This document shows, piece after piece, positions 8,471 to 53,211 of a stretch of 64,000 bases of DNA. The stretch is from contig OY997590.1 of the NCBI GenBank assembly GCA_963921825.1, positions 55,976,012-56,040,011 of the forward strand, given 5' to 3'. Numbering within the stretch: position 1 is the first letter of the stretch; every line of letters starts with the position of its first letter. The DNA is from Erodium maritimum (taxonomy: Eukaryota; Streptophyta; Magnoliopsida; Geraniales; Geraniaceae). Position numbers and translations under genes: made by a program. The notes below the pieces were generated by a model, which did not search any database, had not been told where the DNA came from, and worked only from the letters and a program-made list of their open reading frames with translations.

Positions 8471-8479
8471 AGGACACTT

Positions 8480-9090: not shown

Positions 9091-9559
9091 GGTATCTCGC
9101 CAATTCCTGATGGTAACCCATAGGCCACTCCGTATTAGATATTAGGTTGAGAAAAGGATGGCCCATGTGAAGCTCGGATTACGACCAGTCGGTGCCTATT
9201 AAAAGTGTGTAGTAGGAAAGTAAAGCGCCTTTAGGAACCACGACACCAACGACTGGGGCTTGTGGATGAGGCCCAACACTTGTTTTCCCAATAAAGTATT
9301 AATGACGTCCTGTAGGTGACAAAAACCCATACCTCCACTATCTTTAGGCATGCATAATTTGTCCTAGTCCTGCCATACAATAGATCTCTCAAACTTACCC
9401 CCCCCCCCCCCAATAAAACCTGGCTAGGGCTACATGTATAGGATTCACTATCCGACAAGGGACCCGAAAGATTGACATAATATAGACTGGCAGGGAGGTG
9501 AGGACTGAGCGGATCATAATCTCTCTACCAGCTGGAGAAAGTAACTTTCCCTCCCATGA

Positions 9560-10782
9560 CCTGATCCGAGCCAGGATCTAGTCGCATAGATAAGCCATGG
9601 CCACATTCCGGTTTCTTCCTACCATATTGGGGGCGCCTAAATACGTGGAAGCAATTGAGGTCTCTGCTATGGACAATATATCACAACACTCTTGGCGCAA
9701 CGCTGCTGGGGTATTTGTGCTGAATAGGATTGAGGATTTGCCTATATTGAGGACTTGACCTGAGAGGGTTCCAAAGACTCCTTAAGTATCCTGAATATTC
9801 TACGCCTCAGAAGGGGTGGCCCTGTAGAAGATGTAGTAGTCATTAGCGAAAAACATATGAGATATCTCAAGAGCTCCCTTAGCAATCTGGATGCCATGGA
9901 TAGTGTCTGCGTCTCGGGTCATCTTCAGTAAATGGGATAATCTTTCCATGAAAAGGAGAAAAAAGTGGTAGATAGAGGATTGGCCTAGTGGATTCTCCTT
10001 GTCGGGGCGAGTTTAGGAGTTTCACGTCCCCTTGATGAGATTGAATACGACACCGTCCCCATGTAGTAGGACACTAATTCTATCCAATCAGGCAAAAACC
10101 CGAGTCTGACCATAATAGCGGTCAAGGAGGTCCACTCAACCCTGTCACGGGCCTTGCTCATATCCAATTTCAGATTCATATACTCTACCGCCTGTTGGCG
10201 TTTCCGTTTTAAGTAATGAATTACCTCAAAGGAGATTAGTACATTATCTTGGATGCAACGACCTAGAATAAAAGCTATTTGTGTCTTAGAGATGACATGA
10301 TGTAGCAGGGGTCGGAGTCTGTTCGCCAAAACTTTGGACATGATCCGGAATATTACGTTACAAAGAGTTATGGGCCGGAGATCAGTGACCACATCTGTGT
10401 CAGGCTTCTTCGGGATGAGGACGATCGAGGTTTCATTCAATACTAGATCAAACCCCTTCGTCCGGATGATATCCTGTATAAATCGAACCACCTCTTCTGC
10501 CACCATAGGCTAGTAGTGATGATAGAATCTCGGGTTGGGTCTATCCGGTCCTGGTGACTCTTCCGGTCCCTTCTAAAAAATACCATGGCGAATCTCCTGG
10601 TCAGTACCAAGCGAGAAGAGGGAGAGATTATGCTCAGGGACAATTCGAGTGGGTAACAAGATAGGGAAATCCATGAGGTCCGGATGGCTAGAGGTAAACA
10701 ATTGGCCGAAGTAATCCGTGATGAGCTCCTTCATACTTGACTCCAATGTAACCAATTTCCCCATCGTGATTTTGAGTGCCAC
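9560..10782 (-). pseudogene. LINE reverse transcriptase, degenerate; catalytic FADD box reads FAND
   Basis: A long frame (10506-9985) contains SIVLIPKKPDTDVV, DLRPITLCNVIFRIMSKVLA, QIAFILGRCIQDNVLISFEV and NLKLDMSKA, all typical of plant LINE RT palm and fingers. Further on, near 9840, the catalytic box reads FFANDYYIFY: the first Asp of the FADD motif has become Asn, which should abolish polymerase activity. TYLGAPNMVGRN follows near 9600. Upstream (10782-10573) the pre-RT segment LITDYFGQLF is visible. Stops separate the segments. Confidence 0.82.
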
Positions 10783-11186
10783 AACAACATTAATCCATCG
10801 TTGGTAAGTTGCTGAGGCTTGGAAAAATTCTGTGTTTTGTCCCTCTCAGTCAGCTAGTGCTGTTGTGCACAAAGAGCATTCTGATATTGGATTTGAATAG
10901 CTTCCCTTCGTTGAACCCCTGCCCAGTTTGTCCTTCCATTCAGTTCTGCGATGCGCCTCTATCACCACTTGATGTGGTTAACATTTTTCCAAAAGAAATG
11001 TCAACCCCAACGGGCCAAAGAGATACCCACACCTCGAATCACCTCTATAATTGATACGGAAGGGGATTTGTTCCAAGCCCCCTGAATTACTATACCACAA
11101 TCTGGGTCTCACATTCATTGGAACTAGAATCGGAACTTCGATCTGCCATGATCCTATACCTTATAAGCTAGGCATAACATAAAAGG

Positions 11187-12180
11187 TCAATGATCCGAGG
11201 TTGTGGTTTCCGTATTATAGAAATGCAGGTCCGATAGGGAAGAAAAAAATGGCTTTGAGATCAGAGCTCTGTCTAGCCTTGATTTAATGCGTCTGGTGTG
11301 AGTCCTCCCCCGAAACCAAGTGTATTGATGACTTGTTATTAAGACATCAATAAGATCCAGCTCCTCAATTACCTGGCCAAAATCATTCACAAGACTCAAT
11401 GGGTATGTGCTACTACCCGTGGTTTCATCCTTATATAAGATACCATTAAAGTCTCCAATTGGGTCTCAAGGGAGTATGTAGTCTCCTCAGAAGGTCCCAA
11501 GTCCAAGACTAGTGTCCCCTTTATGCCTCCCCATAGATGCTTGTAAGCCTGACATCATCAAAGCCTGGTGCCGAGATCTCTACATTAATATGATGCTCGT
11601 CCTGATCCTGAAGACCCACGTCAATACCCTCTACCCAAAAAAGAGTAAGGCTTCGTGTTGAATCCGACTTGGGTTCACAGTAGAAACCTTGGAATCCTAG
11701 GGACCTAGACATCATCAAGCATCGTTGGGCAGACTGAATAGTTTCTGAGAGAAAAAGGACATGGGGACAGTGCTCACGAAGGAGATGGCGTAATTGTTTC
11801 TTGTGAAGGCAATATCCCATCCCCTGAAAATTCCAAGCCAATGCTCTGAAATCCAGCCTCGCTAGGAAAGGGTTAGGGTTAGCGATTGCGCCAGACCCCG
11901 GGTCCACTCGCCATTGACATTGGGGCATGGGTGTTGGTTGAGAGAGGCCCGTCGGCTGAGAGGAAGTACCGTCGGGATCAATCGGGGAAAAGCAGTGGCA
12001 TACGAGGATCCACAAAGAACGATCTGGGAGGTACCTAGTGATGTTAGCGGCGTGGTCGTGGTACTGGTGGTATTGGGAACTAGTTAAATTGGGGAAATTG
12101 GAGAAAGTGTGAGGACCGATCTTGGGTAGTGGTGACTCTCGTGGGCACCGAATGAGCAAGAGAGGATGAAGGGGATGCAC
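11187..12180 (-). pseudogene. LINE apurinic-type endonuclease (EEP) domain, degenerate
   Basis: The domain nicks target DNA to prime reverse transcription. It reads ALAWNFQGMG at the start (the equivalent of 'WNxRG'), HVLFLSETI (catalytic Glu), LTSIYGE (the NxYG-type motif), then after a frame break DLIDVLITSHQYTWF and RIKSRLDRALIS near the C-terminal side. The final SDH survives as TTTSDH at 11187-11204. A stop and shift separate the two ORF pieces near 11400-11520. Confidence 0.78.
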
Positions 12181-12298
12181 GACATATCTACGGAGATGTA
12201 GTATCAGACTGAGGTCGGGAGGAGCGACGTCATCCCCGAGGAGAAACCACCACTTGGGTTAGAGGTTCTGAAACCCTAGTAGAGCGCATATATATATA

Positions 12299-12841: not shown

Positions 12842-13463
12842 TTCATGGACAAATCAATCTTTAGGTGCGAAATACAAATTATTCTGGGTCATGGATTTAG
12901 GGGATCGGACGACTACCAAAATTCAGGGGGGTGAGGTGATTGATTACGAAATTTATTAAAAATATGTGCATTAATGATTTTGTCATTATTGATTTTTGTT
13001 TATATCTAGGTCTTTGATTTCACGATCTAAGGGCCCAGATTAATAGTTTGTAAGTTGTACGAAAGATACAAGTTTGTACCTAATAGTTATTGTATTTATA
13101 TATATAGGTTTCTCAAAAATCTAAGAATAAAATTATCAGTGTTCTAAAAATCCCGATTGGGTGCCACTTATGCGCCCTCCTAGGCCCCATTTTGTGTCTA
13201 GCCGACCCGACTATTCGCCTACAAAATCGAGGATCCCTTGAACAATTTTTGCATATTATAGTGACTAAATTAAAATAATTAGATATTTTAAATATTTTTA
13301 CCAGTTTTAATATAAGTAAGTTCATATTTTGTTTTTTTATATATAGTAATTTATCTATAAAAATTTTAAAAATAGAAAAATACAAATCTGATGAGTGCCC
13401 AATTAATCCCCTCCGATTAATCTCCGAAGATCATAGTCGTCCGACTAACGTCTAAAGACTTTT
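12838..13463. other. AT-rich stretch without recognisable gene
   Basis: No coding signal or repeat was recognised. The segment ends in the target site of the RRM retroposon. Confidence 0.5.
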
Positions 13464-13479
13464 AAAACCTTGAAAATTA

Positions 13480-15149
13480 TGCAAGTTTTGATCCGTGGAC
13501 ATTGATGGCTGGAGCTCTCAAGAACAAGCTCAACAAGGCCAGTTTCTGTGATGGTTGTGGGTTGTGTTTTGTCAGGGATATCTCTAAGTTTTGTGTAGCA
13601 TATGGCTTTTCTCGCTTGTTTGTGAAGGATGGCAGATTGGTGGATCTGGTACATGTTTTGGATCGGAAAAAACGTCCTCACAAGGGTGTTGCTCCCTCAA
13701 AATCGGACCTGGGTGCAAAAATAAAGGTTCGTAGACGGGTTCGTCGCACTAAAGCAATAGCGGGAACGTTAATGAATCATTAAGACGTTCAAGTTTTCTC
13801 TGAAAATTCCTCTTGTGCGATTCAGGCCAATGTTGCTCCTCCATCGACCAATTCTACTGCGGTGTTGGAAGCATCTACTTCCACGTTTTTAGGTACAAAA
13901 AATTTTGTGTATAATTTACCGTTTTATTCTTCGGATGATTGGGCTTGATCTACCTTTGGATATTTTGGCGTTATTGTCTCGGCTATTGTTCTTAAACGTC
14001 CCAATAGAAAAAGTAGGTACTTTGGGTTTGTGGATTTTCAGTCGAGTTCTGCGGCTCAGAAGGCCATTGAAGTGTTTAATAGGTTTACTTACGATGAGTT
14101 CAAGCTCTTTGTGGCCTTATCTCGGCTTGAATCGGATCCATTCCCAGTCAAAGGAAAGTTTGCTCCAAAACAGAGCTTCGGCCTACGTCCTCTTGTTCCA
14201 AAACAGAGCATGGTTGGTGTTCTGAATCGGTGTAAGGGATCCTCGATTTTATAGGAGAATGGCTAGTTGGGAAGGATGATGGTTTGGTTTCATGTCCCTT
14301 TTTGAATGAGGTTTCGTTGAAGCTCATGGTGAACATTCACCAGAGCTCTGTTTCAGTGGTTGATTGCTCGTCGGAGGTAGTTCGGGCGGAGATCGGTGAG
14401 TATCCCCGCAGATCTTTGTGTGATTCCCTTTCCCTCTTCTGTTCTAATTATGTTGCGTACGATTCGGCTGGTGTGACTGAGCCTCATGGCCTCGTTGAAG
14501 ACCTTGGCCATAGGGGATTTGTGGTTTGTCTGTTGCTTGACGCGTAAGCTATTCAACTTTTGAATACTTGCTCAGTTGATCGGGTGATTTCGGAAGTGAA
14601 TGAGTTTAAGGGCTTTACTGAAGCCCAAGTTAGTGGATCTTGGGGTTGTACTCATATACTTGAATCCCAAGCAGCTCCGCTTTGTTTTCCAAGTCCTTCA
14701 GTTCTTGAGGAAGGGGTCTTGGATGCTCTGGATGCTTCAGAAGTTGACCAGTTGGAAGTTGTGGACAAAGCTTTGGTGACGGAAGCTCTGATGGATGCGG
14801 AGAAGAAGGAAAGTAGTCCGTGGAAGAACGTCCTCCTCCAACCTTCATCTCGTCAAGGTTTCCCTTCCACTTACACCATTGTTACTAGATCGAAAAATCG
14901 CTCGTTGAGCCGGGAACTGTCATTCAGTCTGCGCCTCCTCTTTCGGTTTTGTGGAAAGCATCTCACAAGGCTTCCAAGAAAAATGGGGTATAGGTGTTGG
15001 ATCTTGACCTTCTTTTCGGTTTGTTTTTGTCCACTACGTTCGTTTTTTTTAAAGATTTTATCGTTTAAGTTTCTTTTGCTGGAGTTCTTTTAATCTTTTA
15101 TCCTGAAAACCACCTTTTTCTTAATAAATTTCTCGAGCTTAAAAAAAAA
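13480..15149 (+). mobile_element. RRM retroposon, copy 1 (poly(A), 16-bp target duplication)
   Basis: The element is bounded by AAAACCTTGAAAATTA at 13464-13479 and 15146-15161 (the leading A's overlap the tail). It ends CTCGAGCTT plus poly(A). This is the signature of LINE-driven target-primed insertion. It encodes an RRM-domain protein but no endonuclease or RT. Its coding part is related to the copies at 32847-34392 and 50674-52907, which share the RRM, a central acidic region and an SPWK-containing C-terminal motif. Confidence 0.88.
13505..15000 (+). pseudogene. RRM-domain protein of the retroposon, broken
   Basis: The first frame (13505-13783) starts MAGALKNKLNKASF and is basic at its end (KIKVRRRVRRTKA). 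After a stop the RRM reads GTKNFVYNLPFYSSDDW (RNP2-like), then a stop, then KRPNRKSRYFGFVDFQ (RNP1-like) and FKLFVALSRLES in the frames around 13890-14130. Downstream frames contain EKKESSPWKNVLLQPSS and YTIVTRSKNRSL (14808-14905). The same order occurs in the other two copies. RRM proteins bind single-stranded RNA, so by analogy with LINE ORF1 proteins a chaperone role is inferred. Several stops and shifts make this copy inactive. Confidence 0.75.
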
Positions 15150-15161
15150 CCTTGAAAATTA

Positions 15162-31979: not shown

Positions 31980-32846
31980 TAAAACTTGACGCCCTGCGTG
32001 TTTAAACGCAAACTTGAGCACGGCAAGTGCACCGGCCGTCAAGTAGTAACCGGAAGTAAATTCCGGGATATCGAGCCCAAGAGAGCAAAAGACAATCACT
32101 TGCTATTTATAGTTCGTAGCTAAACTGTTTCGGTAAAAATCGAGTTTTTATGTTTTGAAAATAAACCTATAACGACTAAAAAGCAAATACAGAATTTAAC
32201 AGAGAGTTTTCTTATCTTGAATCAAGTGAAGAGAGATCAAGGGCACGGGTTCATCGAGTTCATTCCATAAAATTGAATACGTTCGATTGTAGCGATGTCG
32301 ATTTATTTTAGAGGCAACGAGTTGTCTCTACTCTAGTCCTAACTTCTTTCGAACGATTCAGACCCTAATGGAATCTAACCACCGAGTTCTTTCGAATCAC
32401 GATGTAGGAAGACCCAAAGCGTTTAGTTCTATGACAACTTCTAACTTTTAACCAAACTAGTCTATAGGTATTGCAATTGTATTAACCCCGCTAGTTCTAG
32501 CTAGGATTTAAATCCAACCTATGATCGATTTTTGACTTAATTAGAATCCTCCTCTTTCGAGCGACGAATCCTAATTCAAAACAGTTACCAAGCCTACACG
32601 GGAGGTAAAGAATTAAGCACAAATCAATCATAGACACTAATACAAATCAACAACACCACAATCGAAACATTCAAAATATGGAAATCCCTACTCTAATCCC
32701 CCATAACCCTAGAAATTGGGGGTTTAGGTGTTCATGGTGAGAAAATGCAAGGATGAAAAAAAGCAAACAATTAAACTCATAATCAAGATGAAATTTGAGA
32801 TACAATCACCGAATTAGTTGTCCAAAGCTTGTTCTTCCACTCTTTC

Positions 32847-34392
32847 TTTTTTTTTGATAAGCTCGAAAAATTTTATTGATAAGAACGAATCCAAAAAAGA
32901 GACGGAATGCCCTGGTTCAAGAAGAAACAGGGTTAAAGAGTCACGCTTACAAAGGAGTTCTGCTATGGGGGAACTATAAGGACAGACCTTAACCCAAAAA
33001 CAGAGCAAGCCAAAACAAAAAACGAAAAGACAACAGTCACAACTAGATAGCGGATTTCTGGCGCGCCTTATGAGATGCCTTCCACAATGTTGAAACGGGG
33101 GGTGCTGTCTTCAAATTACGTTCCCGAGTCAACGAACGAGCTCTCGAACGAGTAACAACAGTATAAATAGAATGCCGGCTTTGCCGAGGTTGAAGGAGAG
33201 CGTCCTTCCAGGGACTACTCTCCTTCTCTTCTGCTTCCACCGGAACCTCCAATCCTTCAATAACCGCAGCTACCGAATCTGTCGCCACCTCCTTCGTAGA
33301 GCCCTTCTCAACTGGGCCTAACAAGACAGTACCGCCCAAATTATTGGCTACAAACGCCCCTTCAGACATTGCAGGCACAAGTGACACGATTGGAGCATCA
33401 ACCTTACAAGGTTGGGCTTCAACTAAGCCCAACACTGTAGCGCCGTCTTCCACGCGCGTCTCTGGTTCCAATTCCAGATTAGAGTGCGGTACAACACGCG
33501 ATTCCAAGGATGCCAAATCCTCAAGCGATTCTGTGCGATTTACATCAGATAATCCTGCCGAAAATACCTCACCAGAGTCGTAATTAGGACTCGAGATCTG
33601 ACGAGAATCGCGGAACGAAAGGAGTTGTGCTATCTGCGCGCGGATCTCCTCCGTCAGCCAATCAACCACCAACGTCGATCTCCGATCATCGGCCAGTAAT
33701 AGCTACAGCAGCTTCCCATCCTCCATTGGTGCCACAACCCTTTTAGCCGGTGACAGGACCTTTTCCGGTCGAGCTCCAGTACTCTGTTTTCGGAAACAAC
33801 CACTGGGCAAGCTTCGAATGGGATCAACAAGCCCTAAAGACTTTTGAGCCACACTACTCTCCGTCCCCAAAGAGTCCTGCTCCTGCGAGCCACACGAATC
33901 AAAAGCCAGAACAACAGATTTGTTCAGGCTCTGTTGAGAAAGCGTTGACTGCTTAATCGGAAACGGTTCTTTTTCTGGACGAGCCAGAGCTACAAAAAAG
34001 ATAAAACCTTTGTACTTGTGCCCATTGTAAGCAGCAATTGCCCCTTGAGCGTCGACCGGCGAAAAGAAGTCTACAAAACCAAAGCAACGACCTTTCCGGT
34101 TGGGTCTTTTTATCGCAATGGCTGATTTAATCGCTCCAAAAACCCCGAAGATTTCTCGGATCCAACCATCAGAGGAACCGAAAGGTATGTTGAAAACAAA
34201 GATCTTCGTACCTTGCACTGCCGAAGAACTCGCGTCTGTCACTGTCGTCTTCGTCGCCGGAGCAGAGGTGACAATCATGCCTTGATTCTTCTTCGTTGTT
34301 GCCGATGAAGTAGAGATCTGGTTCGGAACAGGATCAGAGACCCCAAATCGCACCACACTCTGATGCACCATACCTAAAGCCTGCATCAGTTC
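32847..34392 (-). mobile_element. RRM retroposon, copy 2, inserted in the LARD LTR
   Basis: It is bounded by TCTTCCACTCTTTC at 32833-32846 and 34393-34406. The other LARD LTR has a single TTCTTCCCCTCTTTCAATC at about 42363-42382, an exact empty site. On the minus strand the element ends CGAGCTTATC plus nine A. Size 1546 bp. It contains one RRM-protein frame and no RT or endonuclease. Confidence 0.93.
33043..34386 (-). pseudogene. RRM-domain protein of the retroposon, one in-frame stop
   Basis: The two visible open pieces (34386-33706 and 33702-33043) are in the same frame, separated by one TAG at 33703-33705, so a single change ends an otherwise about 446-residue protein. RNP2 reads KIFVFNIPFGSSDGWI at about residue 57 and RNP1 KGRCFGFVDFFS at about 91, followed by YKGFIFFVALARPE: one RRM of normal length. 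The middle is Ser/Pro-rich. The C-terminal part holds EEKESSPWKDALLQPRQ and TVVTRSRARSLTRERN, shared with the other copies. The start is close to the element's 5' end, so the N-terminus may be 5'-truncated. Confidence 0.85.
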
Positions 34393-34406
34393 TCTTCCAC
34401 TCTTTC

Positions 34407-35320
34407 AATCTCTAGCCTTAATGCTCTTAAAAATCCACCAAAAGAAACCCACTTGTGTAGCCAACAATGGAGTTTGTCTCCAAAAATCAACACCCAAATA
34501 AATCTCAAAAATGGTTCACTACCCACAAAATAGTGTTTCTCAACAAATAATAGAAGATAAGAAGCTTTTTATTTAATTCTAAAAAAAAGAAATAAAATCA
34601 AAACTATACAAAGGAGGCTCTCCCAGTTTCGTGTGCTCTAGTTCTGTGTACTCGCTGCTCAAAAAAAATGGTGAAATCCCTCATGGCTTGGTGCGGCGCT
34701 GAAACAAAAGGAAGGGAATAGGGCAACACTGTGGACACGCGTCAGGGAAAGAGAGGGCTGCTGGAGTGGACATGTGTCGAGAAGGGAGAGGGGAGTAGAT
34801 GGGGACAGGTGGCGAGCACTAGGGGAATGGCGGCTGGGTTGCCACGCAGGAGGAAAGGCGGGTCCAGCGCCACGTGTCGACAACAGGAAGGAGGCGGCTT
34901 GTCTGGCGGCTGGGGGACGACGCCACGTGGCGCGAGTTGGGGTGAGCGGCGGCTGGCCTGGGACTCGTGTCAGCTCCTGGTTTGTGGCTCTATTTTTCAT
35001 CCTTTTTCGCTATTTTGCTCGTTCCGGCTTCGTTTGAACTCCGATCGGTCTCGTTATTGCGCCAAAAAATTTCTCTTTTCAATACCTACAAAACAAGACC
35101 TATCATGAATATATTTCAAAGCGATCAAAATCGACCCTCTTGACGGTCCACAAGCACGAATCACCCAAAATACATCGGTTTTCCATTCAAAAAACACCGA
35201 AAAAATAGAGAAACACAATTATTCATGCTAAATCTAAATATATGATAGAGAATCGGGACCAAAAGCCTGTATAACTCGATATAATGTGGTCCTTTTACGT
35301 GTTAAAATGCACGTGCATCA
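34407..35320 (-). other. LARD LTR remainder
   Basis: Noncoding LTR sequence. Frames of 125 residues here and at 42703-43080 look alike only because the LTRs are copies. It includes the phrase CTTCGTTTGAACTCCGAT, also seen as a relic near 8195. Confidence 0.7.
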
Positions 35321-35336
35321 ACACCCCACACTTAGA
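35321..35336 (-). promoter_or_regulatory. Polypurine tract of the LARD element
   Basis: On the minus strand AAGTGTGGGGTGT directly precedes the 3' LTR start TGATGCAC. A second similar motif lies near 39838-39850 within the noncoding interior. Confidence 0.7.
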
Positions 35337-35635
35337 CTTTTCTCGTCCCGAGAAAACTAAACAAAAATAAATATAAACTAACTAAGATAAATGCCAAGAT
35401 AAACCCCGCGATACTATCTCCGTAGGAGGAGCTTGGCGACTCTGGGTTATTCAAAGCAGTAAATATGCATATGCTGACTCGACTAGACAAAAATTCTCGT
35501 GCAAATACACAAGCAAATTAAAGACCGAAAAATTAAGACTCAAAGAAGGTGTGTGCTTACACTTGGATTTTATCGGCAATTTGACCTAGAGCATGCATAA
35601 GGAATAAGATCTCTCATCATTCTTTTCTACTTTTC
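35321..35635 (-). other. LARD interior next to the 3' LTR
   Basis: Noncoding. It contains the purine tract and then sequence that is interrupted by the family C LTR at 35636. Confidence 0.6.
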
Positions 35636-35740
35636 TGTGAAGACCGCTTCAAAAAAAAAAAAAAAAACCCTGTTGGGTCGGACCGGACCCGACCAGCAAC
35701 CCGGCCAGGCCAGACCCGGCCCGGGCAGGCCGGCCACCCA

Positions 35741-35834
35741 CGTCTGGGCCGCGCGGCCCATCTCTGAGAAGCCCATGTGTGAGGCCCGTTTAAGGGCTCG
35801 AGTATAAAAGGGAAATTTTAGGTCTGAAACCCTA
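35741..35834 (+). promoter_or_regulatory. LTR promoter: GGCCCA boxes, TATA box, telo-box
   Basis: Visible are TGGGCC (35745), GGCCCA (35755), GCCCAT (35771), a TATAAAAG box (35803) and AAACCCTA (35827). Site II (TGGGCC/GGCCCA) plus telo-box is a known promoter arrangement of plant ribosomal-protein and cell-cycle genes. Its function in this LTR is inferred. Confidence 0.65.
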
Positions 35835-37595
35835 AAATTTCCCTCGATTCTCTTCGTCTTCTCCTGCAGCCTCACCCGTCCCTCTTCCCTCACTCCTTCT
35901 TCTTCGTCTTCTTCGAGCCTCTGCCGACCCAACTCCCTTCGTCGCCGTCTCCTCTCCGTCCAGCCACCACCGAGCCCCCATCTCCGCCCAACCGCGCCAC
36001 CACACCGCCGCCCTCGCCATCTCACCTCGCCGGAAACCGTCCTCTCCGACCTCCCCTTCGCCTCCGTCTTCTCCTTCATCCGATTCACGGCCACGCCACC
36101 ATCAAGCCGTCGCCCTCGTCCCCTTTCCCTCATCTCCGTCCAACCACGCCACCACCGAGCCCCTCTTCTCCGTCCAGCATCGACCGCCCCACCGCCGCCT
36201 CCTTCGTTCTCCGCCCCTCACGCTCGCCACCGTCCAGATCTAGCCAGCCGCCGCCCCGAGCCACCACCTCCGGCCAGCTCGGGTCCCCGACCATCCTCTC
36301 CCGTCTCCCTTCTCCTCTTCGCCGTCCGCACGGCCGGCAAGCTCAGTCGAGCCACCACTACCGCCGCTTCCACAGCCCGCCACCGTTCGTTCCCACGGTT
36401 AGGCTTCGACCAGCTACGCCCTTACCGGTGGTCAGCCGGTTTTGAAAACCGAGTCCCCGTTATTTTTTTCGTTACCGAGTTATTATTCCCTTTACCGCTA
36501 TTCTATGCTGTTCTGGATCTGGCTCGGTTTAAACCGTTGTCATTTTGAATCTAAATCGTAAAGAAATCAAAGAAAGTGAGAAGTTGTTGATATGTTTCAA
36601 AACTAATGAAAATTATCGGTTAAAAGGGAAAGTAATTAAAAACGACTTAGATCCGTTAAATGAGAAAACGAAGTTGTTTTAAACGGAAAGAAAATCAGAG
36701 TTTAATTAAAAAGGAACTTATTTGAAACGAAAAAAAATCGTCTAAGGGAAAAAGGGGAAAAAGGAAATCGGTTTCGAGTTCTTAAGAAAAAATGATAAAA
36801 CTAGGTCTGGTTAAATCAAACGGGTTTTTAAAACGAAAGTCGGTTAAGATTAAACTTGATTTAAGTTAAGTCGAAAGGGGAAAACGAACTCAGATCGGAT
36901 TTAGAAAGGCTTGGACCAAAATATCGAGTTTGGAAAAGAACAGGAAAGAATCGTTCTGTTTTAAAAAAATCAAAGACGGTTGAGTTAAAATTGGTTTTAG
37001 CTGGGTTTTGGATCAACCTGAGTTCGGTGCGCGGGTGCTCGAACTCGATTCGTCGTAATCCCACTTTTATCCCGCTCGAGTGGGAAAGAAAATTGTCGGA
37101 TTTAAACTGGACTAATCGTGACCTTTAACTTAACGGCGGAACCGTTATTAATCTATGGCTTTGTGTTTCCTTTAGCGTCCGGCTTAAATCAAAGTGGAGC
37201 CCGGAGGTAGCGAGCCAGAACGTCAGCAGCTAGGAAACATAGCGGTTGCTCTTCAGTTGAGGTAGGGAAAAGTAGCCGGATCTCGGCCCTGACTGGGGAA
37301 AGTTAACAATAGAATTGCATGTGACACCGGGGTGTCATGGGTTGAGTAGGTTTATTTAAATATCAGAAATGCATGATACGAAGTCGTAGCAATTATTAGA
37401 AAAGCATGATACGGGATTGTAGCGTTTAAGAGAAAAGCATGTGACACTTAGTAGTGTCGTAGGAACAGAGAACGTAGCGATAATTGATTTACTGGAGGCA
37501 TATGACCATGCCCGGAGGTTGTTGGTGAAACTAGTGATATTAGGACTGTTGGAGGCGTCGAGTATGCCGGAGGTTGTTGTGCGTTATTTGTTGTC

Positions 37596-37746
37596 GAGTT
37601 TGGGTGGCCTTGAGAGCCAGTGTTATTTGTTGTCGATTTTGGGTGGCCTTGAGAGCCCGTGTTATTTATTGTTGAGTTTGGGTGGCCTTGAGAGCCCGTG
37701 TTATTTGTTGTTGAGTTTGGGTGGCCTTGAGAGCCCGTGTATTTAA
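37596..37746 (+). repeat. Tandem repeat, about 36-bp unit
   Basis: Four units contain TTTGGGTGGCCTTGAGAGCC and TTATTTGTTGTTGAG. A related array occurs in gypsy LTR B at 56335-56540 and 63425-63640. Confidence 0.88.
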
Positions 37747-37998
37747 ATTGGTGTCTTGAGTGGCCGTGAGTGCCGTGGGGTTGTTGAACCCGATTCTTGA
37801 CCGTTGGTGTGTCTTGAGTGGCAGTGAGTGCCGTGGGGTTGTTGAACCCGAGCCTTGACCGTTAGTGTGTCTTGAGTGGCAGTGAGTGCCCGTGGGGTTG
37901 TTGAACCCGAGTCTTGACCGTTGGTGTGTCTTGAGTGGCAGTGAGTGCCCGTGGGGTTGTTGAACCCGAGTCTTGACTGTTGAGGTGTCTTGAATGGC
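37747..37998 (+). repeat. Tandem repeat, about 60-bp unit
   Basis: About four units contain GTGTCTTGAGTGGCAGTGAG, GTGGGGTTGTTGAACCCGAG and TCTTGACCGTTGG. Long minus-strand frames across it are translation artefacts of the repeat. Confidence 0.88.
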
Positions 37999-38049
37999 CT
38001 TGAGTGCCTGTGTGATTGAATTTTCTTGTAATTGTGATTGCGGATCCCG

Positions 38050-38225
38050 GTAGGTTGCAAGCATTCTTTGGCTGGCCTGACCAAATTTGAGTATCAACGG
38101 GTTGCAAGCATTCTTTGGCTGGCCTGACATGGTTTGAGTAACACAGGTTGCAAGCATTCTTTGGTTGGCCTGGTCCGAGTTGAGTATCACAGGTTGTAAG
38201 CATTCTTTGGCTAGCCTGATCCGTG
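38050..38225 (+). repeat. Tandem repeat, about 55-bp unit
   Basis: Four units contain GGTTGCAAGCATTCTTTGGC and TGGCCTGA, separated by GAGTATCA-like spacers. It differs from the two preceding arrays. Confidence 0.85.
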
Positions 38226-38505
38226 TTAGTATGAGTGGGAGAGGTTACTGAGCAGCTGGTATGCGATCCTTTGGGATCTTGTTTGGTGTGCGATCCTTTG
38301 TGATCTGTTTGGTGTTGTGTAGCTGTCGTTTGAGTCCTTGGGAGAGGTCGTCAATTGTTGTGTCGGGTCTACTTACGTGGTTGAGCGTCGAGTCGGTCGA
38401 GGAAGGTCAACGTGGGTGTTTGTCAGTCGGAGTACTTGAGTTGGGGACGGTGATCCCCGGAGTTGAGTTTGTTGTGGGTGTTATAGGCTTTGTCTGCTAA
38501 TTATG

Positions 38506-38578
38506 CCGTAGTCAGTCTGTTATCCGCGGTGGTGAGCGAACGCTCACCCCTAGCTTCTTTTCCTACAGGTACCGTTCG
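38506..38578 (+). promoter_or_regulatory. Conserved LTR hairpin plus acceptor-like site (family C)
   Basis: GTGAGCGAACGCTCAC can fold as a 7-bp stem with a 2-base loop. TAGCTTCTTTTCCTACAGG follows, which looks like a polypyrimidine tract and 3' splice site. The same block is present in families A, B and D. Its function is unknown. Confidence 0.7.
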
Positions 38579-38820
38579 TAGGCTGGACTAGGTGAGCTTC
38601 TGAAGCTTGAAGAGCTTGAAGCGGGTTTCTGGGTGTTTTGAGTCTAGCGACGGATACCATGTTTGTGCTCCACTTGTTGGGACGTGTTTTGAGTGTAATT
38701 ATTATTTTGTTGAACTAAACTGGTATTTTAAAGTGATTCAATGAAAACAGGTTTCAAGTGTTTGTATGTTTTTAAAACGTTCGCGTCCCGAGTTCGGTTT
38801 ACTGAAATTGGGGCGTGACA

Positions 38821-40288
38821 GCTCACCAACCAATTTTTACATGTTGTAGATTAAGAGTGTATGTGTAGTGGTTTACAAGATGAAGTGCAATAACTAGAAA
38901 GATTTCAAGCCTAATTATTGTCATTTAGCCATTTGCTCTCTCGATTCTACATAACATAGTACTAATCAAGAGAATAACATAATCTCATTCACAAATCTTA
39001 TGAGTGGGCGTTGTCATGCAATTACGTTGCCTTGGGACTACGCGAATGGTAAACTTATCTAGTTCCTTTACGAGTCAAGTGGTAGATCAAAGTTTTGCTT
39101 GGTTTTTTCGATTACGTGTCGAAACTTTGGATCATTAAGCTAGGCTGGGGGTTCACCTTTTATTACGCTATGATTAACTCAAGACATGAGGGTCTCACTC
39201 TGCATAGCGATCCGCCGCAGCCCCTCAAGCCTTTGTTAATACACAGATTTTATTGGATCCCTTTTCCCCGGGACCTATACTCAATTCCCCGTGCACAGTG
39301 TGTGTGATTTTGAAAAATTGGTACCACAAACGCACAATGAGACTAACCACTTGAACTCGACTAGATTTCTAATCTACCGAAACGCATAGTTCGATCCCAA
39401 GACAGCAAGCATGTGGGCTCAACCTCCTCTACATGCAACAAGTGAAATAAGACTAGTATCCCTTAACTAGGGCCACTATATGCAGAAATCAAGATAGAAT
39501 CAGGCCGGTGACAATAAAAAGAATTGAAACCTAACCACATCTAACATTTGGTGTGACCACCTTTTCGTGTTAAGGCATCTAGCATCACAAAATCATCATG
39601 AACCCAATAAGCAATATAGCACAAACACAAAATACAGCTCATTCATACTATCAACAGTAAAACATCCAAACATTCCTCACAAATCCTCAATCATGAAAGA
39701 TCTACTCCCGGCTTACTCATACAGGCCACAATTGCACATCCAAGGTTTACACACAAAATAAAGACCCAAAAAAAAAATTACACCAAAAATGCATGAAGTG
39801 CAGCATAGAATGTAAACATATAAATGCAAAGCATCACACCCCACACTTTAAACCTAAGCACTGTCCCCAGTGCGACTCTAAACACATATTTACAAATAAT
39901 TACACATGCACCCGATAGATGATAACAATAAACACCCACACTCAGAGTCAGGCAATATACAAGTCAAGAAATCCTATATGCACGGTCTGTCAACACAATA
40001 ATTCGGGTGCTCAGCACCCCCAGATAGCATATAAGAAATACAATAGCGGTAAACAATTGAAAATAGAAAGGGAAGAGATACTGCCCCTCGAAGAACCGCT
40101 ACTCGACTTGTAAGCCGCTGTGGGAATCCTAACGTGCATGGATGGACGGAAAGCTCCTCGCCCGTGAGAACTTCTCAGAAGCTCGGCGCCATGGCATGTG
40201 ACTAAACCGCTCATACTCTCCATCCATTGTTGGGGTGCCTCCCAACTAGCGCATTTGTTTAACGTCGTTAGCTCGACATGTAGGAGGC
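38821..40288 (-). other. Noncoding interior of the LARD element
   Basis: No coding frame. It includes a purine/pyrimidine motif like the PPT (CACACCCCACACTTTAA, about 39836) and, near 40228, TGGGGTGCCTCCCAACTAGC, a phrase common at the end of the pol region in Athila/Tat-like elements. Its right side touches the end of the LARD ORF. Confidence 0.6.
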
Positions 40289-41422
40289 TCAATCAGGAGG
40301 CCTCCCAAGAACCTCATACTTCCATTGCGTCCTCCTCTTCAAGTGTGGATGTGAAGGCGGGAGAAGGAGCACAATGAAATAAAAGAACCTCTTCCTTGAT
40401 TTCTGCACAAACTCCAAACTCAAGGCCAATATCATCAAGCTTGCTTTAACAGAATAATCATGATTAAAATCATCTTCGCATAGCTTGGGAGGGATTTGAA
40501 TCCCATGAATCGGAAAATACATATGCCCGAAAGGGTCAATAGAATCCACCGAAATAGAATAATAGCTCACAAACGGGGAATGAGAACTAGCAAATGAATC
40601 AAAAACTTTATGCTCAACATTAAATTTATAAATCAACGGAATAGGTTGAACATAAAGAATTGATTTGCTAGAATCTAAAAATGAATCTCCCACACTAAAT
40701 GGAATTTCGACATCATGCTCAATGTCTAACAATATAAAATCAATAGGAGATTCAAACATAACCCCTCTCTTGAGAGCATCTTCCATAGTACCCCTTGGAT
40801 ATCTAATAGATCTGTCAGCCAACTCTATGGATACTATGGGAAGATTTGGCTCAACAAGAGTTTGTGAACTATATTCTACAACTGTACACTCAGTATTTAC
40901 ATCTATAGAATCCAATGCATCAACACTACATAGAGAATCAATTGTCATAATAGAAGAGGGATAAGAACTTGGTACCTCACATTCCGCACTTACCTCTAAA
41001 CTCATGGGTGAATCACAAGTTTCTTCTTCTGTTGTGTCACATAAGTGCTCGGAATGATCATCCTCAATGTGGACTGCTTGATCATCAAAGTTTGTCTCAT
41101 TAATCAATTGCACGAGATCATTCATTTGAACTTGAAGCTCTTGGACCATGGACGCTTGTTCCTCTTGTTTCCTCATCATCTCGTCCATCTTGTCCATCTC
41201 ATCATGTCGCTTTTCCTCCTCAAATCGGTTTGGAAAAGCTAGACAAAAATCCTCTTCACTAGGCAATTCAAAAGTGGAAGCGTCGCCCCAATTTTGACTA
41301 TAGTCCCTTGAATGCAAAAGAACCTCGCAATTGTAAAAATAATGATCATTAGCTCCACATATATCACAATTCCCATTATTAGGGAACCAATTCTCCATAA
41401 AAGCTATGATGCAAAGAATCAA
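40289..41422 (-). CDS. LARD-encoded protein: zinc knuckle, coiled coil, protease-like remnant (377 aa)
   Basis: An uninterrupted frame of 377 residues lies between the PBS and the noncoding interior. A perfect CX2CX4HX4C knuckle, CDICGANDHYFYNC, occupies about residues 19-32. A charged, coiled-coil-like helix (EEEKRHDEMDKMDEMMRKQ) follows, with an acidic linker. Then comes LADRSIRYPRGTMEDALKR and IDFILLDIEHDVEIPFSVG, which corresponds to the second half of the retropepsin region of Athila/Tat polyproteins. The Asp-Ser/Thr-Gly active site is not visible and ILGRPF is changed to FSVGDSF. A capsid domain is missing. It may bind RNA; its function is unknown. The alternative start MENWFPNN is nine residues in. 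Confidence 0.75.
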   Translation of the reverse strand: MILCIIAFMENWFPNNGNCDICGANDHYFYNCEVLLHSRDYSQNWGDASTFELPSEEDFCLAFPNRFEEEKRHDEMDKMDEMMRKQEEQASMVQELQVQMNDLVQLINETNFDDQAVHIEDDHSEHLCDTTEEETCDSPMSLEVSAECEVPSSYPSSIMTIDSLCSVDALDSIDVNTECTVVEYSSQTLVEPNLPIVSIELADRSIRYPRGTMEDALKRGVMFESPIDFILLDIEHDVEIPFSVGDSFLDSSKSILYVQPIPLIYKFNVEHKVFDSFASSHSPFVSYYSISVDSIDPFGHMYFPIHGIQIPPKLCEDDFNHDYSVKASLMILALSLEFVQKSRKRFFYFIVLLLPPSHPHLKRRTQWKYEVLGRPPD

Positions 41423-41493
41423 CTAAAAGAAAAATATATACAAGAATGAAACAGACGTAGCACAAACTATATAGCAAGGGTCGCCTAATTGCT

Positions 41494-41510
41494 CCCCGGC
41501 AACGGCGCCA
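41494..41510 (-). promoter_or_regulatory. Primer-binding site of the LARD element
   Basis: On the minus strand it reads TGGCGCCGTTGCCGGGG, the site well known from Athila/Tat-like and LARD elements of plants. It differs from the initiator-Met type used by the other LTR elements here. Confidence 0.82.
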
Positions 41511-43289
41511 TAAAACTTGACGCCCTGCGGGTTTTAAACGCAAACTTGCGCACGGCAAGTGCACCTGCTGTCAAGTAGTAATCGGATTTGAAGTCCGGAA
41601 TATCGAGCCCAAAGGAGCAATAGACAATCACTCACTATTCAAAGCTTGTAGCTAAACTGTTTCGGTAAAAATCGAGTTTTTATGTTTTGAAAATAAACCT
41701 ATAACGAAGAAAAAGCAAATACAGAATTTAACAGAGAGTTTTCTTATCTTGAATCAAGTGAAGAGAGATCAAGGGCACGGGTTCATCGAGTTCATTCCAT
41801 AAAATTGAATACGTTCGATTGTAGCGATGTCGATTTATTTTAGTGGCAACGAGTTGTCTCTACTCTAGTCCTAACTTCTTTCGAATGATTCGGACCCTAA
41901 TGGAATCTAACCACCGAGTTCTTTCGAATCACGATGTAGGAAGACCCAAAGCGTTTAGTTCTATGACAACTTCTAACTTTCGACTAAACTAGTCTATAGG
42001 TATTGCAATTGTATTAACCCCGCTAGTTCTAGCTAGGATTTAAATCCAACCTATGATCGATTTTTGACTTAATTAGAATCCTCCTCTTTCGAGCGACGAA
42101 TCCTAATTCGAAACAATTACCAAGCCTACACGGGAGGTAAAACAGTAAGCACAAATCAATCATAGACACTAATACAAATCAACAACACCACAATCGAAAC
42201 ATTCAAAATATGGAAATCCCTACTCTAATCCCCCATAACCCTAGAAATTGGGGGTTTAGGTGTTCATGGTGAGAAAATGCAAGGATGAAAAAAAGCAAAC
42301 AATTAAACTCATAATAAAGTTGAAAGTTGAGATACAATCACCGAATTAGTTGTCCAAAGCTTGTTCTTCCCCTCTTTCAATCTCTAGCCTTGATGCTCTT
42401 GAAAATCCACCAAAAGAAACCCACTTGTGTAGCCAACAATGGAGTTTGTCTCCAAAAATCAACACCCAAATAAATCTCAAAAATGGTTCACTACCCACAA
42501 AATAATGTTTCTCAACAAATAATAGAAGATAAGAAGCTTTCTATTTAATTCTACAAAAAAGAAATAAAATCAAAACTATACAAAGGAGGCTCTCCCAGTT
42601 TCGTGTGCTCTGGTTCTGTGTGCTCGCTGCTCAAAAAAAATGGTGAAATCCACCATGGCTTGGTGCGGCGCTGAAACAAAAGGAAGGGAATAGGGCAGCA
42701 CTGTGGACACGCGTCAGGGAAAGAGAGGGCTGCTGGAGTGGACATGTGTCGAGAAAGGAGAGGGGAGTAGATGGGGACAGGTGGCGAGCACTAGGGGAAT
42801 GGCGGCTGGGTTGCCACGCAGGAGGAAAGGCGGGTCCAGCGCCACGTGTCGACAGCAGGAAGGAGGCGGCTTGTCTGGCGGCTGGGGGACGGCGTCACGT
42901 GGCGCGAGTTGGGGTGAGTGGCGGCTGGCCTGGGACACGTGTCAGCTCCTGGTTTGTGGCTCTATTTTTCATCCTTTTTCGCTATTTTGCTCGTTCCGGC
43001 TTCGTTTGAACTCCGATCGGTCTCGTTCTTACGCCAAAAAATTCCTCTTTACAATACCTACAAAACAAGACCAATCATGAATATATTTCAAACCAATCAA
43101 AATCGATCCTCTTGACAGTCCACAAGCACGAAACACCCAAAATACATCAGTTTTCCATTGAAACACCGAAAAAACAGAGAAACACAATTATTCATGCTAA
43201 ATCTAAATATATGATAGAGAATCGGGACCAAAATCCTGTATAACTTGATATAATGTGGTCCTTTTACGTGTTAAAATGCACCTGCATCA
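41511..43289 (-). repeat. 5' LTR of the LARD element
   Basis: About 1.78 kb. It is nearly the same as 31980-35320 without the inserted retroposon, and so provides the empty site for that insertion. Confidence 0.88.
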
Positions 43290-50661: not shown

Positions 50662-50862
50662 GGGTTAATTGCCTTTTTTTATAAGCAAAAATTTATTAGT
50701 TATGTGCTTTCCAAGATGCAGGAAAACAAGAAAAGAAGACGACCTTAACAAGGGGTCTTCCCAAACCGACGCAAGCTCAAAGGAGCTACAAAAAGATAAA
50801 CAAAAACAAAAAACAAAAAAAAACAAGCGGGAGAGCAAACATCCCCTCCTAACCTATTTCAG

Positions 50863-52431
50863 TTACAGGTTCAGACAAGAAAAAGGATTCAAAACCGGGA
50901 CCGGACTTAGATTTCCCAGTTCAGGGTTATCCTCGTCAACGTCCTTCAACACTCGAGAATTAACTGCCTTTTTGACCTTTTTCGAACTGAAACTCCAATC
51001 GCCAGAACTATTTTTCTTTGCAATATCATTTGTAAACCTTCCGGGATCGCCTCCTTTATCAGCACAAGTCCTGGCTCTTGTCTGATAGAAGACGACTTGA
51101 GGAACAATTTTCTTCGGCTGACCTTTTTTTGGGCGTCCACGTTTCCTTGGTTCCACCTCGGGAATCGGGGATTTGTCCAAGGCTTCCTTCCAAGGGCTAA
51201 CTTGGATACCGCCCAAGTTAGGTTCATCCCGAGAAAAATTCTCCACAAGGGGACCGTCTTGATCCTGTGCACCAAGAACTTGGCCCACAACAGATGACGG
51301 GCCCAAGTCAGACCCAATTCGCTTAAAGATATCAGTCAAAAAGGGTTCACAAACCGACTGGGCTGGACCTGTATCAATAGAACTAATAACAGGCCCAACA
51401 ACCTGAAATGAGCCCAAATTTCCTGACCCAAACTCAAGCCCAAACGGGCCATCTGTATACACAACCGACCAACGCAGACCGGCTTCTTCCCCACGCGTTG
51501 CAGAAACCTGCCGCACATCTTCTCGCGTCTCCTCCAAAACAGGAAAGTGATTCGAACTAACATGAATCATGGGGGCGGGGATCATGGGCGTATGATCAAG
51601 AAATTCTGTAACAAGAGATTCCGAAGAATCAGGCGATGGATTGATTTCTTGAGGATTCACCAATCCCGGAAATCTCTCCTCCTGATTCGGTCTTGCAGGA
51701 GTTGCGCACGCAAGCTCGGATGCTCCACCGTCTGGCGAAGCTTGCTGGAGAAGTTTCGCCTCCATCGAGCCAGAAACTAAGCGTCCCGCGATGCTCTGTT
51801 TTGAAGGTATAGGAACACAGGCATTGGACAATGTCTGTGTACGCCCATGTTGTTCCGAATCCGGCCAAGCAAGTGCTACCAACAGATTATATCCGTTCAA
51901 CTTGAAACTGTTGAGTACCTCGATAGCCTGTAGAGCCAACTCAGTGGTTTTGAACTCTGCAAATTCGAAATAATGGCCTTTCCGGTCTGGTTTCTTTAGA
52001 ACATTGACTGACAAAACATCAACAAGCAATCCCAACGAGTTTCGTACCCAATCCGATGAGGTAGCATACGGAAGGTTGTAGAGAAATACCTTGCATCCTT
52101 TATCCTCATCCTCAACCGGTAGCACAGAAGAATGGTTCAGAACCGCCGGAATGGCGTCCAAAAACGCACGAGTCGTATCAATAGACCCCTGTTGTGGACG
52201 AAAGTTTGGATTGGACGAAACACCCGCAGCTCTAGTCTCCTGTTGTGGCTTCTCTAAGGCATAACAAAGCCATGCAGATCCACCCTCCAAAGGTGTGGCC
52301 TTATCCTTGCCCGGAGTCGTCCTGGTCCGAGATTTCTTGGCCATAGCCTTCTTGGCCAGAGACTTAACCTTTGCCTTTGCCGGAATATCACCATCTTGGG
52401 CCTTGAAGGACAACAGAACCTTCTTCCCCAC
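50863..52431 (-). CDS. RRM protein of the retroposon, intact 522 aa
   Basis: The frame starts MGKKVLLSFKAQ and has a Lys-rich N-terminus (KAKVKSLAKKAMAKKSRTRT). One RRM follows at about residues 112-190: CKVFLYNLPYATSSDWV (RNP2-like) and KKPDRKGHYFEFAEF (RNP1-like, with Glu in place of the usual Gly), then YNLLVALAWPDSEQ. The long middle is acidic and Pro/Ser-rich. Near residue 430 is VSPWKEALDKSP, then RKRGRPKKGQPKK, which looks like an AT-hook, and YQTRARTCADKG, matching the VTRSRARSLT of copy 2. No zinc knuckle is present. By position and style it resembles a LINE ORF1 product and may be an RNA chaperone; that is inference. This is the only copy with an unbroken frame. Confidence 0.8.
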   Translation of the reverse strand: MGKKVLLSFKAQDGDIPAKAKVKSLAKKAMAKKSRTRTTPGKDKATPLEGGSAWLCYALEKPQQETRAAGVSSNPNFRPQQGSIDTTRAFLDAIPAVLNHSSVLPVEDEDKGCKVFLYNLPYATSSDWVRNSLGLLVDVLSVNVLKKPDRKGHYFEFAEFKTTELALQAIEVLNSFKLNGYNLLVALAWPDSEQHGRTQTLSNACVPIPSKQSIAGRLVSGSMEAKLLQQASPDGGASELACATPARPNQEERFPGLVNPQEINPSPDSSESLVTEFLDHTPMIPAPMIHVSSNHFPVLEETREDVRQVSATRGEEAGLRWSVVYTDGPFGLEFGSGNLGSFQVVGPVISSIDTGPAQSVCEPFLTDIFKRIGSDLGPSSVVGQVLGAQDQDGPLVENFSRDEPNLGGIQVSPWKEALDKSPIPEVEPRKRGRPKKGQPKKIVPQVVFYQTRARTCADKGGDPGRFTNDIAKKNSSGDWSFSSKKVKKAVNSRVLKDVDEDNPELGNLSPVPVLNPFSCLNL

Positions 52432-52907
52432 AGAACGAGCTATGATTTTACAATAAGAATCATAACTTGTTAGTAGCGCCGAACAAAATTATGGAAAAGG
52501 ATTCGGCCTCAACTTCTTAGAGAGAAGCTTTTCCGTCATTATTAAATGAATTTTCAATTCTATCCTCAGTTACCAGATGCAGACTCAGATGAATATCAAT
52601 TCAAGAGGCAGAGCACAATCGGGACCAAGCCCTGAGATGGACTTGACGAGTCCTTCAGTTGCTGCTCAAAGACAATCTGGCCGGAGAGAATGGGCGTCCG
52701 GCAAAGGGTTGGACTTGACGAATTCGGGCAGAGGGAAAAGTAGGCGAAACTGTCACTGGAAACGGACTCTAGCGACTGGTTTCGTTCTCCACTGCCACAG
52801 ATCGGAACTCAGCAGCCCAGAAAACACCGAGACGAATCACCGGAGAGATTCCGAGACTATCGCCTACAAGAAACTCCTGCCACAGAGTGCCTCCTCCCGT
52901 CCGCCGG
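52432..52907 (-). other. 5' leader of RRM retroposon copy 3
   Basis: Noncoding between the upstream target copy and the start codon. If the element has an internal promoter, as LINEs do, it would lie here; no motif was certain. Confidence 0.55.
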
Positions 52908-53211
52908 GGGTTAATTGCCATTAGTACCCCTTATGTATTGATAACACTCCTTTTTCTACCTTGATGTACTGGTAACGCTTTGGACAAAATTTTGGTCACG
53001 TTTACGCCATTTTGATGATATATGATCAATTCATAAGGAGTATTAAATGTTCTGTTATCAATACATAAGGGGTATTAAATAATTTGTGACCAATTCATAA
53101 AAGATACTAAATGTATGTTACCAAAACGAAAGGGTTGTTTTCGAATGTTACCAAACGTAAGAATACTAAAAGTATGTTACTAATAAAAATGGGTACAAAA
53201 GGTAATTAACA
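52908..53211. mobile_element. MULE-like MITE split by the RRM retroposon
   Basis: The MITE's first 12 bp sit at 50662-50673 and were duplicated as the retroposon's target. The right end reads, reversed, TGTTAATTACCTTTTGTACC against the left GGGTTAATTGCCATTAGTACC, about 35 bp of similarity. The outer flanks TTTCAAATTA at 50652-50661 and 53212-53221 are a perfect 10-bp duplication, near the usual 9 bp of Mutator-like elements. Inside, phrases such as TACATAAGGGGTATTAAAT recur. Confidence 0.8.

Follow-up and report, generated by a model that had tools for sequence, protein, structure and literature searches.

The 'half-L1' or HAL1 elements of mammals were reportedly described by Bao and Jurka in 2010, and the BNR-type L1 LINEs (long interspersed nuclear elements) of plants, which carry an RNA recognition motif (RRM) in their first open reading frame (ORF1), are said to have been reported by Heitkam and Schmidt in 2009. 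As excerpts of one account portray them, HAL1 elements are ORF1-only, poly(A)-tailed and flanked by target-site duplications, and depend on the reverse transcriptase (RT) and endonuclease (EN) of a LINE (PMC5322556). Their long-kept coding capacity is argued, in part of a second paper, to mean that an ORF1 protein in cis and an ORF2 protein in trans are both needed (PMC3627910); extracts of a further source also deal with half-L1 elements (PMC4859970).

Here we analyse three insertions, E1, E2 and E3, in a 64,000-nt stretch of Erodium maritimum DNA (contig OY997590.1, positions 55,976,012-56,040,011, assembly GCA_963921825.1), referred to as the window. They have mRNA-like form (AATAAA, poly(A) tail, target-site duplication) and a single ORF without EN or RT, and they belong to elements present in many copies with selection on the RRM. 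We consider E1-E3 to be, very probably, old copies of numerous non-autonomous L1-type retroposons, which each specify one protein, an RRM protein with homology to LINE ORF1, and would be served by LINE ORF2 in trans. They amount to a HAL1-like system in a plant, with a candidate partner for the E3 lineage and without one for E1/E2. No ORF1-only LINE family in plants was described in the open-access literature searched, outside which most subscription journals lie.

Three RRM-only insertions and their relatives in the genome

The first-pass annotation of the window had described three poly(A) insertions with target duplications and without RT or endonuclease, and both statements hold. The duplications are exact in E1 (16 bp), E2 (14 bp) and E3 (12 bp), and four LINE ORF2 queries that did match elsewhere in the window gave no EN or RT match inside the insertions. 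AATAAA starts 24-31 nt from the element end in each. Exact direct repeats of at least 12 bp within 8 kb accompany only 4 of the 55 runs of at least seven A (33 on the + strand and 22 on the - strand), and three of these four are E1-E3; five simulated backgrounds gave 0, 0, 0, 1 and 0. The fourth run (34680-42632, +) has an exact 19-bp upstream repeat, which begins with eight A and lies 8 kb apart. The target of E1, CTTTT/AAAA, fits an endonuclease of the L1 type, going by the description of LINE targets in part of PMC2848041, and those of E2 and E3 are less typical.

Pfam RRM_1 recognizes the domain in E2 and E3, and a profile built from the family matches it in the broken frame of E1 (Table 1); no RRM beyond these three was found in the window by tblastx with E1-E3. 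E2 contains IFVFNI and KGRCFGFVDF, RNA-contact motifs that look canonical against the ribonucleoprotein consensus, and its C-terminal piece has no Pfam match at 0.1. A single frame runs from the 5′ end of E2 to the ORF stop save for one internal stop, and the frame of E1 has several stops and frame changes. E1 and E2 share 70% nucleotide identity over 193 nt of the C-terminal region and 51% amino acid identity over 115 aa around the RRM. The domain order reported at first for all three stands insofar as it runs from an RRM and an acidic middle to SPWK and a TR(S)RAR-like segment. The C-terminus of E3 (KRGRPKKG...YQTRAR), however, is unlike that of E1/E2, and the RRM region of E3 is just 36-41% identical to theirs. 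A 27-bp inverted match of 92.6% between the 5′ flank of E1 (13213-13239) and E1 itself (14234-14260) may be chance or a piece of another repeat.

E3 had been presented as an intact 522-codon member, which it is not. Its frame starts with GTG and, counted from the first ATG, gives 493 aa; the start codon common to its relatives lies 36 codons upstream of the GTG, at 52539-52537. Between it and the GTG frame stands an in-frame stop (52491-52489), which makes E3 a broken copy. The start codon and common N-terminus, variants of M...LLSKTLRPIPFPEFCSVLLSSYDSYVKIIACSLGKEV, were located in 14 of 20 loci fetched from the genome (see below), and nine loci besides E3, among the best candidates scored, have a stop-free match to at least 470 of the 522 residues. 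Judged by its matches, E3 is also a mosaic, because its leader (E3 positions 2-293) resembles the pre-ORF sequence of locus L014 and the remainder matches E3-type copies. Another locus, L024, holds a 605-aa stop-free frame with an RRM (oriented positions 808-2622) and no ATG before residue ~300, so either the start codon was lost or a non-AUG start is used.

The host assembly (763 Mb, 40 contigs) was searched with the E3 protein, for which the best 83 of 10,400 first-look candidates were scored, and with the E2 RRM piece, for which the best 150 of 9,679 were scored. The former gave 108 matching stretches, merged into at least 81 loci, and the latter at least 151 matches; no relative of either query was confirmed in IMG/VR viral contigs. 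From 54 matches to the 5′ half of E3, 20 mostly best-scoring loci were fetched with about 7 kb of downstream sequence. Apart from a LINE neighbouring L017, none of the 20 continues into an ORF2 on the element's own strand; such continuation in most copies is what the first-pass annotation had named as fatal to its reading. Tblastn with the L1 pieces of the window found EN/RT in L017 only (1 of 20), where the LINE lies beyond the RRM element's own 20-bp repeat (one mismatch) and was rejected as its ORF2. Stronger queries (ORF2 of the LINEs L029, L031 and L032 and the EN part of LINE LF) added ORF2 pieces in three further loci, downstream in L023 and L028 and upstream in L027, and these are no continuation because all three run antisense to the RRM element. 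A family tail stands 172-211 nt past the last ORF match in 16 of the 20 loci. On a wider scale, none of 81 E3-type and none of 149 E1/E2-type loci lies within 8 kb upstream of a LINE ORF2, a result that counts for less than the 20 loci read directly, because the comparison covered 43 LINE ORF2 loci from a list cut short at that number. Simple deletion of the LINEs examined does not account for the RRM-only elements.

Strict target-site duplications were found in 6 of 18 tailed fetched copies, against 1 of 108 swapped pairings. For 11 of 16 copies a looser alignment, run without a control and with L025 set aside for its non-family tail, placed the 5′ repeat just ahead of the start (score at least 22; the starts of L012, L013 and L020 were estimated), with leaders of 7-196 nt, nine of them below 75 nt. 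The 5′-most match to another copy lies within 9 nt of the start codon in 10 of the 15 copies with a located start, and because matches between copies begin so near it, the leaders appear to be short or not common to copies. Matches further upstream look like dispersed repeats in L016, L017, L025 and L026 and are the L014 leader in E3. A break in similarity near E3 365-384 was rejected as a common 5′ end, since it falls at the joint of the E3 mosaic and also where other copies have their start codon. Second RRM-only copies lie near the first in three loci (L011:4694-5919, L026:4900-6373, L021:2221-3609), and insertions therefore cluster.

That such elements are numerous is borne out by their tails. 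The E3-type pattern TAATAAANTTTTCGCTTATCAAAAA occurs at 782 genome places with at most two mismatches and the E2-type pattern AATAAATTTTTCGAGCTTATCAAAA at 839, with no occurrence of the reversed control in either case. Of 23 E3-type places, obtained by taking every second exact match from the top of the list (20 newly fetched, three already read), 21 follow an RRM-only coding end (19 of the newly fetched, L024 and L013), one belongs to a LINE (LD) and one is undecided (L046); the resulting 21:1 ratio of half-elements to LINEs is biased because the pattern was drawn from RRM-only copies. For the E2 type, 100 listed tails and 149 listed matches gave 17 collinear RRM-tail pairs within 8 kb (shifted control, mean 0.1). 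Two of these place the RRM 3.9 and 5.6 kb before the tail, a LINE-like distance, and would suit the idea that E1/E2-type copies are part of a full LINE family with RRM ORF1 and ORF2 and are ORF1-only just in the window. We regard this as distinctly unlikely, as the other 15 RRMs lie within 2 kb of a listed tail, which leaves no room for an ORF2, and the distance is about 1.3-1.4 kb or less in E1, E2 and the L021 copy.

Table 1. Coordinates of E1-E3 in the window, and of two long RRM-tail pairs elsewhere in the genome
Feature	Position	Strand	Basis
E1, RRM-only retroposon of the E1/E2 lineage, degraded frame	13480..15145	+	exact target-site duplication, poly(A), identity to E2
E1 5′ target duplication AAAACCTTGAAAATTA, 16 bp	13464..13479; second copy 15146-15161	.	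exact repeat
E1 RRM, one internal stop	13898..14125	+	family-built profile, E 1.7e-25
E2, RRM-only retroposon of the E1/E2 lineage	32847..34392	-	target-site duplication, poly(A), frame
E2 target duplication, 14 bp	34393..34406; second copy 32833-32846	.	exact repeat
E2 N-terminal ORF piece, with RRM at 33976-34209	33703..34386	-	Pfam RRM_1, 1.4e-12; family profile
E2 C-terminal ORF piece: acidic, SSPWK, VVTRSRARS	33043..33672	-	ORF list
E2 3′ end AATAAAATTTTTCGAGCTTATC(A)n	32856..32930	-	pattern of this kind at 839 genome places, at most 2 mismatches
E3, RRM-only retroposon of the E3 lineage	50674..52907	-	target-site duplication, tail, genomic relatives
E3 target duplication, 12 bp	52908..52919; second copy 50662-50673	.	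exact repeat
E3 522-codon frame from GTG	50863..52431	-	ORF list; first in-frame ATG is codon 30 (52344-52342)
E3 RRM	51862..52095	-	Pfam, 2.8e-5; family profile, 1.9e-34
E3 5′ leader	52615..52906	-	81% identity to pre-ORF sequence of the divergent RRM-only L014
E3 3′ hairpin, AATAAA...TTTGCTTAT ahead of tail	50681..50735	-	folding, tail comparison
Long RRM-tail pairs of E1/E2 type	C9:4132322-4137955; C6:3351332-3355272	.	collinear listed matches

Homologous LINEs, the 3′ hairpin and exchange of ends

A search for zf-RVT listed 150 loci, the best of 12,902 first-look candidates, and the 3′ ends of four long-frame loci from this list (L029-L032) were compared. L029, L030 and L031 are other L1 types, without an RRM ORF1 and with different 3′ ends, for example TTTGCATTTCTCTC(A)n and CCCTCATTTTCGTC(A)n. 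L032 combines an RRM ORF1, with the RRM split across two frames, an RT ORF2 and an E3-type 3′ end, and its ORF2 as a query gave at least 43 loci. In each of six further LINEs examined at both ends, an RRM ORF1 precedes the ORF2 match and the 3′ end is of the E3 kind (GCCTATC instead of GCTTATC in LE and LF), with the start of ORF2 visible as an open frame in five and not in LD; with L032 included, the combination is found in 7 of 7. The ORF2 of the homologous LINE carries RVT_1 and zf-RVT (Pfam), the latter presumably a mark of plant-type LINEs. The L1 of the window at ~8.46-12.2 kb (-) was rejected as a partner, since it contains EN and RT pieces but no RRM. Decayed L1 ORF2 pieces occur in the window on both strands, at ~8460-12200 (-) and ~6000-7700 (+).

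The ORF1s of LINEs LB, LC, LE and LF align with one another over long stretches at ~36-53% identity. RRM-only ORFs can be aligned with LINE ORF1 only in the RRM and in a C-terminal block (RGRPKKG, YYQTR, DIA, W.....KK), and their N-terminus and middle are unlike it. Within these limits the homology is clear: the 605-aa frame of L024 matches the ORF1 of LC in the RRM (2e-15) and the C-terminus (2e-13), and a C-terminal profile built from RRM-only copies matches all seven LINEs. For E2 the alignment with LINE ORF1 is confined to the RRM. DUF4283 was suspected by eye in the middle of LINE ORF1, and because Pfam gives no support for it (none at E 0.01 in LC), that part is named here just a common segment. 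A full LINE with the same ORF1 and 3′ end, the partner envisaged in the first-pass annotation, thus has a counterpart for the E3 lineage, with an ORF1 homologous in RRM and C-terminus, but not for E1/E2, and the candidacy of these LINEs as partners is limited to the E3 lineage.

The LINEs and the E3 lineage also share a hairpin ahead of AATAAA. In 43 tails (36 RRM-only, 7 LINE) the mean z-score is -3.88, and 39 of the 43 fall under the 5th percentile of their shuffles (200 each); the set was drawn from 49 tails after L018, a second L012 tail, the E2-type tail of L021, L046, E1 and E2 had been excluded before counting, and the L046 tail folds weakly (-3.3). The stems of the groups differ by paired changes, with C-G, U-A or U-G at one position and A-U or C-G at the next. 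MAFFT columns were rejected for counting covariation, as LINE stems with a one-base bulge slip by one, and each tail was therefore folded singly; since single folding makes the pair types canonical by construction, the shuffle z-scores serve as the control. A hairpin of this kind, with a variable stem near the tail, is described in part of PMC3747384 for a plant L1 lineage whose 3′ ends are stringently recognized.

Two E3-lineage copies, L050 and L058, suggest that ends have been exchanged. Along the coding end and the initial portion of the 3′ untranslated region (UTR), 330 and 374 nt in all, they are 78% identical to the RRM-only copy L048; beyond that they follow the 3′ UTR of LINE LB, with 93.5% identity along 139 nt and 90.6% along 170 nt. 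The distal 3′ UTR of both is 73-74% identical to that of L048. The two chimaeras may stem from one event. They are the most direct sign in these sequences that RRM-only and LINE RNAs encountered a common reverse transcriptase, and lend indirect support to trans mobilization by LINE ORF2.

These shared ends bear on a quite different source, namely that a cellular RRM gene, or a small number of them, gave rise to the insertions as retrogenes through the activity of any LINE. The mRNA-like build with poly(A) and target-site duplications would fit such an origin, as would leaders that appear short and an E2 RRM piece that matches cellular RRM structures, best PABP and then Nop4, HuD and CELF2. We nevertheless hold retrogenes to be very unlikely. 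The E3 lineage has the 3′ hairpin and tail of a LINE, its C-terminus is homologous to LINE ORF1, the chimaeras carry a LINE 3′ UTR, several deep lineages exist, and the 81 E3-type loci, inspected by eye among the best candidates, are single or near-collinear matches, none of them exon-like.

One further poly(A) retroposon occupies positions 1-998 of the window (+), inside an L1 RT fragment (~1000-1810). It is a 3′ part without a long ORF, begins before the window and ends in ...TTGCTTTCGCTGATC(A)n, with a tail like those of E1-E3.

Divergence and selection

In a tree of 29 RRM sequences, a long branch leads to a clade made up of the six LINE RRMs (100%), E1, E2 and the L021 copy group together (92%), and 18 E3-type copies are separated (90%). 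What had been described as one family is, on this tree, two deeply separated lineages, E3 and E1/E2, although all are RRM-only retroposons. Because the tree does not fix the order of its deep branches, the RRM-only elements could go back to a single origin or to several. The same tree speaks to the possibility of repeated internal deletions of present RRM LINEs, with ORF2 lost by deletion or splicing, which would explain the common RRM, C-terminal block and 3′ end as well as the two copies with a 91-94% identical LINE 3′ UTR. Such an origin is highly improbable in our view, given the separate clade and long branch of the LINE RRMs, the lack of alignment in the middle of LINE ORF1 and the different N-terminus.

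The first-pass annotation proposed comparing substitution rates among copies, and dN/dS (Nei-Gojobori, stop codons skipped) proves to be well below 1. For the RRM of 22 RRM-only sequences the median is 0.155, with all 141 usable pairs of 231 below 1, and for the C-terminal block of 21 sequences it is 0.318 (142 of 210 pairs usable). These ratios indicate that the RRM is under purifying selection. Because old insertions decay neutrally, they reflect constraint on the source ORFs and not its cause. The elements might thus be moved by LINEs while their protein plays no part, the frame being kept by young sources or by host use, much as non-coding Sadhu elements and SINEs (short interspersed nuclear elements) are thought, in the portion of PMC2848041 that concerns them, to be LINE-moved. 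We think this fairly unlikely, with every usable RRM pair below 1 at so low a median and stop-free copies at many loci.

Proposed mobilization and comparison with known systems

The explanation that we favor, non-autonomous elements with a protein of their own and a borrowed LINE enzyme, can be put as follows. LINE ORF2 protein would recognize the E3-type 3′ end in trans and use target-primed reverse transcription to insert the copies. The RRM protein of the elements would bind its own RNA, with a cis preference, and form a particle which the LINE enzyme enters; the RRM frame would be kept because of this proposed binding and particle formation. Elements would change by swapping ends, as suggested by the two E3-lineage copies with a LINE 3′ UTR and by E3 with the leader of another RRM-only element. 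The proposal of the first-pass annotation, that these are non-autonomous ORF1-only LINE relatives using a partner's RT, finds support in the many copies, the lack of an own ORF2 and the homologous LINEs; movement in trans and a role of the protein in cis are what we infer from these features.

Several observations weigh against this explanation. No partner LINE with the E1/E2 tail CGAGCTTATC was found, E1 and E2 have no hairpin (folds of -1.1 and -5.5), and the two distant RRM-tail pairs of their type could be full LINEs or interrupted copies. The scans gave no family tail in L014, L015, L016 and L025 (4 of the 20 fetched loci), and the comparison of 3′ ends among the zf-RVT loci covered four LINEs. 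ORF1 or ORF2 is frame-broken in several of the seven LINEs, and none is shown to be fully intact. The pairs used for dN/dS are non-independent, 4% of those for the C-terminal block reach 1 or more (some of them with L009), and something other than their own mobility may be what places source copies under selection.

A broader proposition is that plants harbor long-lived half-LINEs, with several RRM-only lineages living alongside RRM-type L1 LINEs over long spans of time, selection for a protein that binds its own RNA, a matched or captured LINE 3′ end, a division into cis-ORF1 and trans-ORF2, and numbers exceeding those of LINEs at the sampled tail (21:1 of 23). We give this about an even chance of being right. 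If true, ORF1-only retrotransposons would extend from mammals to plants, with a selected protein of their own and a structured 3′ end that one lineage has in common with the candidate partner, and both the need for a cis ORF1 protein and the recognition target of a plant L1 RT would be testable in one genome. Some gene models annotated as 'RRM domain protein' in plants may likewise be half-LINEs.

Among described elements, HAL1 is the closest in plan: E1-E3 likewise encode only an ORF1-type protein, without EN or RT, and have poly(A) tails and target-site duplications. The E3-lineage protein is homologous to the ORF1 of a resident LINE in RRM and C-terminus and that of E1/E2 in the RRM only, and the 3′ end is common with the LINE in the E3 lineage, with no partner found for E1/E2. 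They differ from HAL1 in coming from a plant, in a canonical-looking RRM with, in the E3 lineage, an RGRPKK/YQTRAR C-terminus, in forming at least two lineages, in an RRM-only ORF deeply diverged from LINE ORF1s and in the structured 3′ end that E3 has as LINEs do. They are not HAL1 proper, which is of mammalian L1 origin, as the homologous LINE ORF2 has RVT_1 and zf-RVT. The BNR-type LINEs resemble them in the RRM of ORF1, and L032 and L033-L044 are LINEs of this general kind; E1-E3 are set apart by the lack of an ORF2, whereas the candidate partners carry both ORFs. With the plant L1 lineage defined by a 3′ stem-loop, as far as it is set out in part of PMC3747384, the tails share a variable stem with compensatory changes beside the tail, and CGAG in E1/E2, but that lineage comprises monocot LINEs and SINEs, and the CGAG of E1/E2 is not beside a hairpin. 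Sadhu of Arabidopsis, as portrayed in extracts of PMC2848041, is likewise non-autonomous, with poly(A), target-site duplications and plausible LINE mobilization; it is non-coding, whereas E3-type elements have stop-free frames and low dN/dS.

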